Positions 18,703-31,194 of a stretch of DNA of 64,000 nucleotides are shown here, piece by piece; position 1 is the first letter of the stretch; each line of letters opens with the position of its first letter. The notes beneath the pieces were generated by a model. The model saw nothing but the letters and a program-made list of their open reading frames with translations. It had not been told where the DNA came from and ran no database searches. The stretch comes from Acidobacteriota bacterium (GTDB lineage: Bacteria; Acidobacteriota; Blastocatellia; Pyrinomonadales; Pyrinomonadaceae), in contig JAOAPY010000025.1 in assembly GCA_025463135.1 (NCBI GenBank), positions 62,001 to 126,000 on the forward strand, read 5' to 3'. A program made the translations under genes and the position numbers.

Positions 18703-18780
18703 GGGCGGACCTGCGTGTCCGCCCTTTATAACGCAATCTGCCAGGTTGCGACGGATACGCAAGCCAGCAGCTTGCGGTAC
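18703..18780. repeat. palindromic repeats upstream of the ATPase gene
   Basis: GGGCGGAC-CTGCGT-GTCCGCCC (18703-18724) is an 8-bp hairpin. It is followed by CGCAATCTGCCAGGTTGCG and by GCAAGC-CAGCA-GCTTGC (within 18757-18780). They occupy the leader of the ATPase gene. Confidence 0.75.
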
Positions 18781-18799
18781 AAAAGGAAGCAAACCATCA

Positions 18800-20269
18800 A
18801 TGCAGCAAGCACGGACTCTGGGTGAGCTTAAAGAAAGCGATTACCAACGCGTTTCCGTCAAAGACGAGTTGCGCGCCAACTTGATCAGAAAATTACAGGC
18901 GGGCGAGAAATTGTTTCCCGGCATTGTCGGCTACGACGAAACGGTCATTCCTCAACTGGTGAATGCCATCCTCTCGCGGCACAACCTGATTCTTCTGGGC
19001 CTGCGCGGTCAGGCGAAAAGCAGAATCATTCGGCAACTTACCGAGCTGCTTGACGACAGCATTCCGATAATCGCCGGCTCGGAAGTCAATGACGATCCCT
19101 TCCATCCCATCTCGGCTTATGGCCGCCAACTGCTCGAGCTCCACCGTGATGCAACGCCTATTCACTGGATAGGACGCGATGCGCGCTTTGTTGAAAAACT
19201 AGCCACACCCGACGTGACGATCGCCGACATCATCGGCGACGTCGATCCCATCAAAGCAGCGAAGGGCGGCCATCTGTTAAGTGATGAATTGACGATTCAT
19301 TACGGCCTTTTGCCGCGCGCCAACCGAGGTATTTTTGCGATTAACGAACTGCCGGATCTCGCGGGCAAGATCCAGGTAGGGCTTTTCAACATCATGCAGG
19401 AAGGTGACGTGCAAATTAAGGGATACCCGGTGCGTCTGCCGCTCGATGTAATGCTGGTCTTTTCCGCGAACCCCGAGGACTACACGGCGCGCGGCAAGAT
19501 CATTACACCTCTGAAAGATCGCATCGGCGCCGAGATCACGACCCACTACCCCGCCGAGTTGCAGACAGCGGTGGAGATAACCAGGCAGGAAGCCTGGATT
19601 GCGCGCGATGGCTTGAGCGAGCGACTGCACTTGCCGGATTTCATTCGCGAAGTGATCGAACAGATCGCCTTTGAGGCCCGCGATGATAGTCGCGTCGATA
19701 AACATTCGGGCGTATCTCAGCGGCTGCCAATTACCGTTACCGAGTCTGTCGTCTCTAATGCTGAACGGCGCGCGTTGCTGACAGGTGAAGAAGAGATCGT
19801 GCCACGCATAGCCGATATCTACGCTTCGATTCCCTCGATGACGGGCAAAATGGAGTTGGAATACGAAGGCGAGCAGATCGGCGCGCAGCGCGTCGCTAAG
19901 GATTTGATCAAGCGCGCCGCCGGCGAGATCTTCGAAGGGTATTTCGTGGGCATCGATTTCGCCGGCACTATTCGCTGGTTTGAATCGGGAAACAACTTGC
20001 GCCTGGCCGATACCGCTTCTGCTTCTGAATGCCTTGGCTTACTCGAAGCCGTACCGGAGTTGATTGACACATCCTTGATACCGTTCAATTACAAACACTC
20101 CCAGGACGCCGAGGTAATCGCCGCCTGCGAGTTCGTCCTTGAAGGGCTGTACGCTGAAAACAAAATCAGCCGCAACGAAGAGGGCGGTTACACAGCCATC
20201 ACGAAAGCAAAGAAGGACAGGCGGGGGATGATCTATGATGACCTGACCGAGAGCGGTAAGTATAGTTAA
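18800..20269 (+). CDS. MoxR/Mg-chelatase-I-like AAA+ ATPase
   Basis: 489 residues from the ATG at 18800, which has AAGGAA about 11 nt upstream. The P-loop reads GLRGQAKS (residues 67-74) and the Walker B region is GIFAINELPDL (177-187), with Asn-Glu where most AAA+ proteins have Asp-Glu. A sensor-like block LVFSANPEDYTARG follows. MoxR and ChlI type ATPases work with a VWA protein as a chelatase or maturation factor. The VWA gene follows two genes downstream, and the pair is interrupted by a GxxExxY gene. The client protein is unknown. Not a sigma-54 activator: no GAFTGA loop is seen. Confidence 0.85.
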   Translation: MQQARTLGELKESDYQRVSVKDELRANLIRKLQAGEKLFPGIVGYDETVIPQLVNAILSRHNLILLGLRGQAKSRIIRQLTELLDDSIPIIAGSEVNDDPFHPISAYGRQLLELHRDATPIHWIGRDARFVEKLATPDVTIADIIGDVDPIKAAKGGHLLSDELTIHYGLLPRANRGIFAINELPDLAGKIQVGLFNIMQEGDVQIKGYPVRLPLDVMLVFSANPEDYTARGKIITPLKDRIGAEITTHYPAELQTAVEITRQEAWIARDGLSERLHLPDFIREVIEQIAFEARDDSRVDKHSGVSQRLPITVTESVVSNAERRALLTGEEEIVPRIADIYASIPSMTGKMELEYEGEQIGAQRVAKDLIKRAAGEIFEGYFVGIDFAGTIRWFESGNNLRLADTASASECLGLLEAVPELIDTSLIPFNYKHSQDAEVIAACEFVLEGLYAENKISRNEEGGYTAITKAKKDRRGMIYDDLTESGKYS

Positions 20270-20272
20270 TGG

Positions 20273-20289
20273 GCCACAGATGAACACGG
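20273..20289. repeat. left arm of inverted repeat flanking the GxxExxY gene
   Basis: GCCACAGATGAACACGG, perfectly matched in inverted orientation by 20688-20704. The start codon of the GxxExxY gene lies inside this arm. Confidence 0.95.
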
Positions 20290-20717
20290 AAGAACACAGA
20301 TTCAAGCATGGAGAAATAACGAAGGTAGTCATCGCCGTTTTCTACGAGGTGTATAACGAGCTGGGGTATGGCTTTTTGGAATCAGTCTATGAAAAATCCC
20401 TGCAAATTGCGCTGACTTCGGCGGGACTTAGGGCCCTCCAGCAAATCGAAATTCCCGTTTCATTTCGTGGCCAACGAGTGGGAGATTTCACTGCTGATTT
20501 ACTCATAGAAGACTGTGTTCTACTCGAACTGAAGGCTGCAAAGGCTTTCGATCCGGCCCACGTCGCCCAACTTCTCAATTACTTACGCGCAACAGAAATC
20601 GAAGTTGGCTTACTTCTGAATTTTGGCCTCAAGCCGGAGTTCAAGCGCCTTATATTCGATAATCCCCGTAAAGCCCTCCGTGGAAATCCGTGTTCATCTG
20701 TGGCTGATTTATTATGA
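20280..20717 (+). CDS. GxxExxY protein (PD-(D/E)XK nuclease-like)
   Basis: 145 residues. The family motif GFLESVY spans residues 31-37 (Gly31, Glu34, Tyr37). The nuclease-like core follows: Asp69/Asp73 in GDFTAD and E83-L-K85 in LLELKAAKAF. Family members are common in bacteria and are predicted nucleases, but their function is unproven. The ATG and first residues (MNTEEHR) are encoded by the left inverted repeat and the last residues (CSSVADLL) by the right one. Its stop overlaps the start of the VWA gene (ATGA), so the cassette is translationally coupled to a gene pair that it interrupts. No ribosome binding site of its own is clear. Confidence 0.88.
   Translation: MNTEEHRFKHGEITKVVIAVFYEVYNELGYGFLESVYEKSLQIALTSAGLRALQQIEIPVSFRGQRVGDFTADLLIEDCVLLELKAAKAFDPAHVAQLLNYLRATEIEVGLLLNFGLKPEFKRLIFDNPRKALRGNPCSSVADLL
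20688..20704. repeat. right arm of inverted repeat flanking the GxxExxY gene
   Basis: CCGTGTTCATCTGTGGC, the exact reverse complement of 20273-20289. It lies within the last codons of the GxxExxY gene. Confidence 0.95.
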
Positions 20718-22063
20718 AATTCACGCGCTACTCAAAATTCAACGGTCTCGATGTCTCGTCGCTCAATCTGGGCGAGCTGATGGAAGCCTTGTCCGATGAC
20801 TTGCTGCAATCGGGCTACAACGAAGATTACTACTGGACGCGTGAGCGCAGCCAGATCGACACGTCTCTCGACGCTTTACGTCGCGCGCTGTTAAAGGCAT
20901 TGATGGACCAGGGGCTGCTCGACGAACATCGCATACAGCAGATGCTCGCCGAGAACGAAGGCAAGTATAAAGGTTCGCAACTCGAAGAGATGCTCAATCA
21001 ATTGATTGAACGGTTGGTTGAGGAAGGCTATCTCACCTTACGCGAAGAAAGATCAGAGCAAGCGCAACGGCAGAGGGGCACGGGGCCGGGCCAGATGGGT
21101 GAACCTTTGCCGCACAACGTCAAATTCGAAGTCACCGAGAAGGGTCTGGATTTTCTCGGCTACAAGACGCTCAGAAATCTGCTCGGCAGCATGGGGAAAA
21201 GTTCGCTCGGGCGACATGACACGGCGTACCTGGCGACGGGAGTCGAAGCGGAAAGCGCCAGCAAGCCGTACGAGTTTGGCGACACCATCAACCTCGATGT
21301 GAATACAACGCTGCTCTCGGCCATTCAGCGCGAGGGATTAACAGTGCCGCTCAATCTCGAGTATGGCGACCTGCATGTGCATCAATGCGATTATCAATCT
21401 TCATGCGCGACGGTGGTGATGCTCGATTGTTCCCACTCGATGATCCTGTATGGCGAGGATCGCTTTACACCGGCCAAGAAAGTCGCGCTTGCCCTGGCGC
21501 ACTTGATCAGGACCCAGTATCCCGGTGATTCGCTGAAGATCGTTTTGTTTCACGATAGCGCCGAAGAGCTGGCGCTCGCCAAGCTCGCGACGACGCAGGT
21601 TGGTCCTTATCACACCAACACGGCCGAAGGATTGCGGCTGTCCCGCCGCATACTACAGGGTCAGCGCAAAGAGATGAAACAGATCGTGATGGTGACGGAT
21701 GGCAAGCCGACGGCGTGCTTTGTTGAAGGGGCGACGGTTGCAAGCGGTGTCGGTTCCGCCACGCGCGAGCGTACGGAATCGAAGGCAGGCAGGATGCCTG
21801 CGGTCCCGGGACGACGACTGTACAAGAACTCCATGGGCGGCGATCCATTTGTGATGGACGCCACCTTCAAGGAGGTTCAGGCTTGTCGCAAAGGCGGCAT
21901 CATGATCAATACCTTCATGCTCGCCAACGATTATTATCTGGTCGAGTTCGTCAAACAGATGTCGGCTATGACCAACGGCAAAGCCTACTTTGCGAATCCC
22001 AACAATCTCTCGCAATTCGTTTTGATGGACTTCATGCGCCGCCGCACCAGCCGCGTAAAATAA
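20714..22063 (+). CDS. VWA-domain protein, partner of the MoxR-like ATPase, with in-frame repeat insertion
   Basis: 449 residues. Residues 1-175 are helical and charged; the VWA domain starts near residue 225. The metal-binding MIDAS motif is Asp238-Cys-Ser-His-Ser (MLDCSHSM), with the later Thr ([10 protein letters not shown]) and Asp (MVTDGKPT) positions also present. The order ATPase then VWA matches MoxR/VWA and ChlI/ChlD pairs. Around residues 340-375 there is an insertion ([15 protein letters not shown]) encoded by a palindromic repeat (21785-21810), read in frame and falling in a loop between beta strands. The start overlaps the previous stop (ATGA). Client unknown. Confidence 0.87.
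21785..21810 (+). repeat. AGGAT-loop palindrome inside the VWA coding region
   Basis: GCAGGC-AGGAT-GCCTGC-GGTCCCGGG, a variant of the intergenic family at 2833, 5078 and 5147. It keeps the loop and the GGTCCC tail while both stem arms change together. Confidence 0.9.
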
Positions 22064-29361: not shown

Positions 29362-31194
29362 ATGCCCAAGCAAACTGCCGAGTCTTACGCGTTCGGTCCC
29401 TTCCGGCTGGACAAAGTCGAACACTTCCTGCTGCGCGACGATGAAGTCGTGCCGCTGGCGCCGAAGCTTTTCGAGATCCTGGTCATGCTCGTCGAGAACA
29501 ACGGTCATCTGCTGACTAAAGAAGCGCTGATGACGGCCGTCTGGCCCGATAGTCATGTCGAAGAGGGCAACCTCTCGCGCAACATCTCGACGCTCCGAAA
29601 GCTTTTGAGCGACGGCTCATTGGAATCAAAGTACATAGAAACTGTGCCGAAGCGCGGGTATCGTTTCGTTGCTGACGTGACAGAGAGCATCGCAGACAAT
29701 GCTGATTCAAAATTGCGCGAGCGGATCCGCGCTCACGTGGTGATTGAAGAAACCAGTGACGATGAGATGTTGCCGGAAGCAAAGCCCGTCGCCCAACAAG
29801 CCGCCGGTACAAACGTCACCGAACCATCGCGTGAAGGCGAGCGAGTACCAGAACGTCCGCCGGAGACCATGTATGCGAGAAGCGGCGATGTAAACATAGC
29901 GTATCAAGTCGTGGGCAATGCTCCGCTCGATCTGGTATTTGTCATGGGGTGGGTTTCACATCTCGAATATTTTTGGCGGGAGCCTTCGTTCGCCCGCTTC
30001 CTCTTGCGTCTTGCTTCTTTCTCACGGCTAATTCTGTTCGACAAGCGGGGCACTGGACTTTCAGACAGGGTGCCAAATAACGAACTCCCTACACTGGAGC
30101 AGCGCATGGACGACGTGCGCGCGGTCATGGATGCGGTCGGTTCGGAACGCGCTGCCCTCTGCGGAGTTTCTGAAGGCGGTCCGCTGTGCAGTCTTTTTGC
30201 CGCGACCTATCCTGAGAAGACGCTTGCGGTGGTTATGATTGGTACCTATGCGAAACGCATACGCGACGCTGAGTATCCCTGGGCGCCGACCTCTGAACAC
30301 AGGCAACATTTCTTTGACGAGATCCGCGCCAACTGGGGAGGTCCCGTTGGTCTCGAGGACCGCGCGCCCAGTATGGCCGACGATGCAGAGTTTCGAGATT
30401 GGTGGGCGACCTATCTGCGCATGGGCGCCAGTCCCGGCGCGGCTTTGGTGCTGACGCAGATGAACGCGGAAATAGATGTCCGATCCGTGCTGCCAACGAT
30501 TCGTGTACCCACGCTCGTGATCCACCGCACGGATGATCAATGCTTGAAAGTTGAAGAAGGGCGTTTTGTTGCCGACAGAATTCCGGGAGCAAAGTTTGTG
30601 GAACTGCCGGGAAACGATCATCTTCCTTTTGTGGGCGACCAGGATGCGATTCTGGACGAAGTTGAAGAGTTCCTGACCGGGGTGCGCCACGCGCCGGAAC
30701 CGGATACAGTACTGGCGACAGTATTATTTATGCGCATTATCGGCTCAAAGGAATATGCCGAACGATTTGGGGAAAGCCGTTGGCAAGAGCTACTTACAAG
30801 GCTGCGTTCGCACATCGCCAAGGAAATCGAATGGTTCAGAGGACGAGCTATCGACATGATCGGGGATCATCCGCTCGCGATCTTTGACGGTCCGGCGCGC
30901 GCGGTTCGCTGCGCCGGCGCGATCATTGAATATGCCTCGCGCTTAGGCATTAAAATGCGTGCCGGACTGCACACCGGTGAATGTGAATTCGCAGATAGCC
31001 AAGTCGGCGGCGTTGCCGCGGAGATAGGCGCGCAAGTAGCCGGGCAAGCGCTGTCCGGCGAGGTGCTGGTTTCGAGCACGGTCAAAGATTTGGTTGCGGG
31101 TTCGGGCATCAGCTTTGAGGAAAGAGGCACGCATACATTTGCCGGCTTGGCTGGCGAGTGGCACCTGTTCAAGGCCAGGATGAAGGCTGACTAG
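29362..31194 (+). CDS. winged-helix / alpha/beta hydrolase / degenerate cyclase fusion
   Basis: 610 residues from MPKQTAES; GGAAAG lies about 6 nt upstream. Residues 8-107 are an OmpR/CadC-type winged helix (PKLFEILVMLVENNGHLLTKEAL, then SRNISTLRKLL and VPKRGYRFVADV). Residues about 168-440 are an alpha/beta hydrolase with nucleophile Ser270 (GVSEGG), and candidates Asp392 and His420 (GNDHLPF). Residues about 450-610 resemble a class III nucleotide cyclase, close to the pattern of Rv1900c-type hydrolase-cyclases. The first metal Asp is replaced: FMRIIGSK has Arg458 where FTDIVGST is usual, while Asp502 (IGDHPLA) remains. The cyclase is therefore probably inactive. It has no transmembrane segment, so it is a cytoplasmic DNA-binding sensor in inference. 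Confidence 0.85.
   Translation: MPKQTAESYAFGPFRLDKVEHFLLRDDEVVPLAPKLFEILVMLVENNGHLLTKEALMTAVWPDSHVEEGNLSRNISTLRKLLSDGSLESKYIETVPKRGYRFVADVTESIADNADSKLRERIRAHVVIEETSDDEMLPEAKPVAQQAAGTNVTEPSREGERVPERPPETMYARSGDVNIAYQVVGNAPLDLVFVMGWVSHLEYFWREPSFARFLLRLASFSRLILFDKRGTGLSDRVPNNELPTLEQRMDDVRAVMDAVGSERAALCGVSEGGPLCSLFAATYPEKTLAVVMIGTYAKRIRDAEYPWAPTSEHRQHFFDEIRANWGGPVGLEDRAPSMADDAEFRDWWATYLRMGASPGAALVLTQMNAEIDVRSVLPTIRVPTLVIHRTDDQCLKVEEGRFVADRIPGAKFVELPGNDHLPFVGDQDAILDEVEEFLTGVRHAPEPDTVLATVLFMRIIGSKEYAERFGESRWQELLTRLRSHIAKEIEWFRGRAIDMIGDHPLAIFDGPARAVRCAGAIIEYASRLGIKMRAGLHTGECEFADSQVGGVAAEIGAQVAGQALSGEVLVSSTVKDLVAGSGISFEERGTHTFAGLAGEWHLFKARMKAD

Follow-up and report, generated by a model that had tools for sequence, protein, structure and literature searches.

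The closest described relatives of the arrangement reported here are the REPtrons and TIRtrons, in which a RAYT tyrosine transposase is combined with REP or TIR repeats (PMC3733652). In the sections of that paper drawn on here, a small gene lies between palindromic or inverted repeats, repeats of the same type are dispersed without the gene, a genome may hold several gene–repeat types, and the flanking repeats may overlap the ends of the gene; all of these are likenesses to the GxxExxY cassettes described below. The cassettes differ in carrying a PD-(D/E)XK nuclease rather than an HUH Y1 transposase, and in having arms built from short units in a row. Repeats like those around the gene are dispersed in the genome studied here; the gene itself matches PF13366 alone in Pfam, and no Y1_Tnp match lies within 2 kb of the two arm families. 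On the sections used, REPtrons and TIRtrons are the nearest described system, with a similar architecture and a different enzyme.

The MITEs of insertion sequences are short, gene-less elements with inverted ends, which internal deletion can produce from a copy that bears the gene. The GxxExxY loci resemble them in having terminal inverted repeats (62 of 73 loci) and a deletion derivative (L224), but differ in that no target-site duplication was found at the 62 loci and that the gene-bearing copy is without a known transposase, its gene matching PF13366 in Pfam and TIGR04256.

Geobacter bemidjiensis has multicopy nucleotide sequences, which are dispersed intergenic families, some palindromic and others made of direct repeats of 6–42 nt (PMC2996986). 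The portions of that paper used here mention no associated gene, unlike the GxxExxY cassettes, and its families may include arm repeats of the kind described below. The protein family itself, TIGR04256/PF13366 (PDDEXK_3), is mentioned in print in passing and without terminal repeats, as far as the excerpts concerned go; among the matches listed, the open-licence literature held no link of GxxExxY, PF13366 or TIGR04256 to terminal repeats.

The locus studied lies in a window of 64,000 nucleotides (the whole stretch of DNA analysed) from an Acidobacteriota genome, G000. Its features are as follows.

18746–20269, plus strand: upstream host gene, a chelatase/MoxR-like AAA ATPase, outside the cassette (open reading frame; partial TIGR02442/TIGR02030 matches)
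20273–20290, plus strand: left arm, GCCACAGATGAACACGGA, two repeat units, holding the ATG (sequence comparison)
20280–20717, plus strand: GxxExxY gene, predicted RecB/Cas4-like PD-(D/E)XK nuclease, 145 amino acids (open reading frame, profiles, structure model)
20687–20704, minus strand: right arm, an exact inverted copy of the left, encoding part of the C-terminal tail
20714–22063, plus strand: downstream host gene, a VWA-domain protein, outside the cassette (open reading frame, PF13519)

An earlier note on this DNA described a perfect 17-bp inverted repeat bounding the gene, and this was borne out with an exact match of 18 nt (GCCACAGATGAACACGGA, 20273–20290 and 20687–20704). When extended, the arms reach 29 nt at 86% identity, with 396 nt between them. 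The 17-mer arm has three matches in the window at up to three mismatches, against 0.15 expected from shuffles; an arm-like match at 30454, with three mismatches and no partner, was taken as chance. The reading frame begins, as had been claimed, at an ATG within the left arm and extends across the right arm in its final codons, and the TGA of the gene indeed overlaps the VWA start ATG at 20714. The setting between a MoxR-like ATPase and a VWA gene held in part: an ATPase and a VWA_2 protein (PF13519) are present, but the ATPase gave partial magnesium-chelatase/cobaltochelatase matches in the profile search and matched no MoxR model there. At E ≤ 0.001 the ATPase is matched in 52 of 60 genomes, our own included.

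That relatives always carry the gene at this site, which the earlier note held would speak against a moving cassette, is not so: of 20 relatives in which the VWA start could be reached, none showed GxxExxY at the window gap, and neither did any of 29 other loci over the stretch available after the upstream gene (the tails of L116 and L133 are short). The proposed comparison of ATPase–VWA loci thus showed no GxxExxY in the relatives compared, but gave no clean empty site from which to read exact junctions, because the gap is divergent and occupied by other inserts. Several relatives have other palindromes or short open frames in it. Small inserts are common in the gap after the ATPase gene in L106–L134, where the short open reading frames look HicA/HicB- or PIN-like by eye; other palindromes lie in the ATPase–VWA gap of L107, L108, and L114.

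The window protein is a clear member of TIGR04256 (2e-36; 124.9 bits against a cut-off of 35) and of PF13366 (2e-38). A search of the PDB by sequence gave one match, at E 0.13. The structure model has a pLDDT of 86.9, and the solved structures closest to it include Cas4 SSO0001, lambda exonuclease, and archaeal Hjc, with two matches at E ≤ 0.001, TM-scores of about 0.4–0.5 and sequence identity under 21%. Residues E34, D73, E83, K85, and Q97 are invariant in all 28 aligned proteins, and Y101 is present in 90% or more. The conserved pattern E, D, E-x-K, Q-x-x-x-Y, a further likeness to these enzymes, is what we take to be the RecB-type motif set. By predicted fold and by residues, the GxxExxY protein is therefore a putative PD-(D/E)XK nuclease of the RecB/Cas4 type; it differs from Cas4, lambda exonuclease, and Hjc in being about 130 residues long and stand-alone, with a gene bounded by repeat arms. 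The active-site E, D, E-x-K, and Q are kept in 67 of the 73 loci examined (61 by pattern, 6 by eye), the other six being truncated or missing an active-site residue. dN/dS is 0.07–0.13 in seven Sphingomonadaceae pairs, of which the five with dS above 1 give rough values, and 0.10 for G009 against G033; the protein is under purifying selection.

The arms recur widely in the genome of the window. Allowing up to three mismatches, the window-type arm has 57 matches in the 6.48-Mb genome, against 5 for the reversed-pattern control. They form 16 convergent pairs of 71–236 nt, with no divergent pair within 250 nt, and the single convergent pair 250–3000 nt apart is the window GxxExxY cassette; the remaining matches have no partner at this stringency. 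Another GxxExxY gene of the same genome, L001, has a different arm, CCGCAGATTnCrCAGAT, for which there are 36 matches (control 0), forming 10 short pairs of 65–147 nt, one divergent pair, and one longer pair, which again is the GxxExxY gene. There is one long pair per repeat family, and therefore one gene-bearing copy in each of two families, both of them GxxExxY. The other two GxxExxY loci of this genome fall below our arm threshold (L003 scores 12; L004 is truncated). The gene-less pairs fold better as single strands than shuffled sequences, with z from −3.4 to −8.6 in the five of five that were folded. At the gathering score, Rfam gave no match in 8 loci.

These pairs could be palindromes moved by another enzyme, a RAYT or another transposase, with the nuclease gene a passenger or captured between two repeats. 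The genome does contain six matches to Y1_Tnp, the transposase family searched, and the nearest arms face the other way at some GxxExxY loci, L035, L047, L063, and L102 among them. At L137, on a Gemmatirosa plasmid, GGACTGAAGAA-unit palindromes stand on both sides of the GxxExxY gene (1772–2523) in an element–gene–element layout, as though two elements enclosed the gene. However, neither arm family has a Y1_Tnp match within 2 kb in G000, and the only arm pairs 250–3000 nt apart there, in both families, hold GxxExxY. We regard the passenger explanation as unlikely; if it holds, the finding reduces to a variant of REP-like repeats.

We then carried out a wider analysis of GxxExxY loci. The gene is present in 41 of 60 genomes (our own and 59 relatives) at 119 places, with up to nine copies in a genome. 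We examined 73 of these places, 4 in the window's own genome and 69 elsewhere; L057 repeats L001. Inverted arms scoring at least 13 flank 62 of the 73 loci, against 4 of 987 shifted control windows, and the 11 loci without arms at this threshold include two of the four in the window's own genome. The idea of a gene moving as a cassette ended by arms is supported well beyond the window locus. The expectation that the 17-bp arms would stand beside other GxxExxY genes held for the presence of arms at most of them, but not for the letters, which differ. Most of the arms consist of short units repeated in a row, such as CCACAGAG-n-CACAGAG, CCGCAAAG-n-CGCAAAG, CCGCGAAATACGCGAAA, and CCGCGGAT-n-CGCGGAT; read by eye, an arm is a few short direct repeat units of about 8–11 nt. 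In 57 of the 62 loci, the best or tied best match of a left arm is its own partner.

The gene runs in the same direction as its downstream neighbor at 62 of 73 loci, as its upstream neighbor at 56 of 71 callable loci, and as both at 49, where direction was taken from the longest open frame rather than from gene calling and the counts are raw. The earlier suggestion that the cassette preserves translation of its operon has partial support: it fits this co-direction, but the left arm holds an in-frame start codon at no more than 12 of 62 loci, and at 11 of 62 the stop falls within the right arm or past it. No excess of direct duplications of 2–8 nt was seen at offsets 0–6 in the 62 loci. This negative result fits a route unlike DDE transposition, without proving one.

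Two repeat patterns, AGAG and RGAT, were counted in the 60 genomes, our own included; kinship was ignored in all these comparisons, and the cassette types of a genome were taken from the 73 examined loci only. The summed repeats have a median of 45 in the 41 genomes with GxxExxY and 3 in the 19 without (p 2e-7). AGAG repeats have a median of 44.5 in the 16 genomes with an AGAG-type cassette and 8 in the other 25 (p 8e-4), while the other pattern does not differ (9 vs. 11). Similarly, RGAT repeats have a median of 29 in the 12 genomes with an RGAT cassette and 6 in the other 29 (p 0.007), the other pattern being lower (6.5 vs. 24). Repeats also occur in genomes with no GxxExxY match (G034, 49; G031, 34; G010, 18; G040, 12; G001, 11). 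These genomes can be read either as having lost the nuclease or as having another mover, and the second reading would favor the passenger explanation. As a separate observation, CCACAGAGACACAGAG matches on contigs C3, C4, C8, C14, C16, and C17 of G058 are often clustered a few hundred bases apart, unlike the pairs elsewhere.

Arm type was mapped onto a tree of 57 GxxExxY domains, leaving out the 11 armless loci and 5 that fitted no label, and merging AGAG with GGAG and AGAT with GGAT. It requires 12 changes, against 30.3 for shuffled labels, a value not reached in any of 200 shuffles. Taken one by one, it is the common types that cluster: RGAG needs 4 changes (18.1 shuffled), RGAT 3 (11.9), and AAAG 2 (8.5). 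The rare types GAAA, GAAT, and GAAG show no clustering on their own in this tree. Four arm types occur in genome G027, whose copies mostly fall beside those of like type in other genomes. That the commoner arm types track the nuclease tree argues against a passenger gene.

The fabD–fabG gap of the Sphingomonadaceae provides a site that can be compared between species. GxxExxY was sought there by motif on the coding strand only, and among 80 loci there are 25 cassettes, 2 decayed ones (L204 and L224), 51 gaps without a cassette (28 of them with a gap of at most 45 nt), and 2 that were unreadable, with no fabG in reach. L224 is an internal-deletion derivative that has kept both arms. In 23 of the 25 cassettes the left arm begins 0–15 nt after the fabD stop, the exceptions being L251 (43 nt) and L255 (another gene between). 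The letters of the arms differ between species while left and right match within a locus (17.4 of 18 with the own partner vs. 15.1 with others), and the own partner is the best or tied best match in 17 of 24 cassettes. At L251 an AAAG-type gene-less element is nested within a GGAG-type one, and the fab cassette of the same genome is AAAG-type.

The arm types of the fab cassettes (25 rows, excluding L222, and with labels assigned by hand for L136 and L255) need 8 changes on the GxxExxY tree, a value that none of 200 shuffles reached, and 13 on the FabD tree, where the shuffled mean is 13.4 and 104 of 200 shuffles were as low. The whole signal is carried by the GAAG type, which forms one GxxExxY branch (1 change, support 88/93) and needs 6 changes on FabD; at this site the GGAG and AGAG types are clustered on neither tree. 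Arm type differs between S. faeni (L184, GAAG) and S. albertensis (L185, AGAG), which FabD places as close sisters. Since GAAG follows the GxxExxY tree rather than that of FabD, we conclude that, for this type at least, the gene and both arms travel together, apart from the history of the host genes. Strict vertical inheritance at the fab site was rejected: GxxExxY and FabD distances are weakly correlated (rs 0.30, p 0.009), compared with 0.73 for FabD and FabG (n 25).

That the same gap is filled across many species, and that one of the arm types does not follow the history of FabD, is what could be expected of homing, in which the nuclease would cut cassette-free sites and the cassette would be copied in by gene conversion, the arms being recognition sites or invaded targets. 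A PD-(D/E)XK fold, as predicted by the model, would suit this role. A same-genus flank search gave one empty site, an Acidobacterial pair in which L173 is the empty site for L051 and holds ACACAGAGGCAAAG, which resembles the arm units and is again consistent with homing; it also gave one shared cassette gene (L055/L176), partners of L058 and L039 with other sequence in the gap, and a right-flank match only for L076. On the one cognate site per element that marks a homing endonuclease the picture is mixed, the fab gap being occupied in many species but many other sites as well. Against homing, the cassettes and gene-less pairs lie at many different sites of one genome, and a unit-like 7-mer occurs in only 1 of the 28 empty fab gaps of at most 45 nt, and two adjacent units in none of the 51. 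We therefore consider homing improbable.

The strong single-strand folding of the gene-less pairs, together with the close match of arms to their own partners, would also suit a host factor: a nuclease that serves in cruciform or hairpin processing or in repair, with the arms as regulatory hairpins, of RNA or DNA, whose likeness selection or gene conversion maintains, and nothing moving now. The rarity of the gene on vehicles of transfer points the same way, GxxExxY being found in 8 of 72,556 plasmid records (a second query gave the same eight) and in none of 50,697 phage records. Against a host factor stand the varying occupancy of sites between related species, the conflict of the GAAG arm type with the FabD tree, the nested insertion in L251 and the deletion derivative L224, and the multi-copy, scattered distribution. 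It is an explanation to which we give little credence.

The GxxExxY cassette is thus a unit present or absent at fixed sites, the common arm types are linked to protein clades, and the genomes concerned also contain scattered gene-less pairs of the corresponding type. That the gene and its arms form one mobile unit is well supported; that the nuclease is the mover we infer. The explanation that we consider probable is a minimal mobile element whose PD-(D/E)XK nuclease would act on the element's terminal repeats and also mobilize gene-less copies in trans. The predicted nuclease would recognize its own repeat units and nick or process the ends, which might take the form of a cruciform or a single-strand hairpin; recombination or repair by the host would then complete the move without target-site duplication. 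Internal deletion would give gene-less pairs, which could be moved in trans, as RAYTs are supposed to move REPs. A cassette inserted after a stop codon but ahead of the following ribosome-binding site, and running with the operon, would leave the host operon in working order. Against this explanation count that no transposition events were observed and no target-site duplication found, the 11 armless loci, the six loci with a truncated protein or a lost active-site residue, the arm types that do not cluster, the presence of arms at only 4 of 8 plasmid loci, the genomes with repeats but no GxxExxY match, and the six Y1_Tnp matches in G000.

The broader proposal, on which we are evenly balanced, is that GxxExxY cassettes are a widespread and undescribed class of autonomous element, in which a Cas4/RecB-like nuclease would read a code in the end units (...GAG, ...AAG, ...GAT, ...GAA), move itself and many gene-less hairpins, and enter operon gaps without target-site duplication. 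Protein clade predicts unit type, and therefore the recognition code could be readable from sequence; the match of clade to unit type also makes DNA recognition directly testable. To our knowledge, no enzyme family known to move bacterial inverted-repeat elements fits GxxExxY, and because of this the kind of small mobile element would be categorically new. We found no role for GxxExxY in print, and the intergenic repeats described above have no assigned mover; joining the two gives a testable function, and offers a source for the hairpin repeats of many genomes. If true, this reading adds a nuclease-based route to the known ways in which DNA moves, and the Cas4-like fold bears on how such nucleases are recruited for DNA integration.

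Among loci on plasmids or chromids from other lineages, arms scoring at least 13 were found in 4 of 8 (Sphingomonas, Bacteroides, Bernardetia, and Gemmatirosa); below the threshold, the Fusobacteria and Treponema loci score 11, and those of Persicobacter and Prevotella gave nothing. On viral contigs, arms were found at one of two loci (L259). By eye, similar tracts flank GxxExxY in L135 (Fusobacteria) and L142 (Prevotella) in a seemingly direct, not inverted, orientation. L180 bears the title Arthrobacter sp. TPD3018, but its FabD and GxxExxY almost match those of Sphingomonas aquatilis, and it is probably mislabelled. Other palindromes, CCCGCGAAGGCGGGGATCC-like or CTGAACTTGTTTCAG-like by eye, lie in the fabD–fabG gap of L230, L241, L250, L252, L254, and L256. 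Finally, the left flank of the L045 cassette (contig 515 of G030) is repeated in contigs 65, 262, 499, and 635 at 95–100% identity, and is another repeat family adjoining a cassette.
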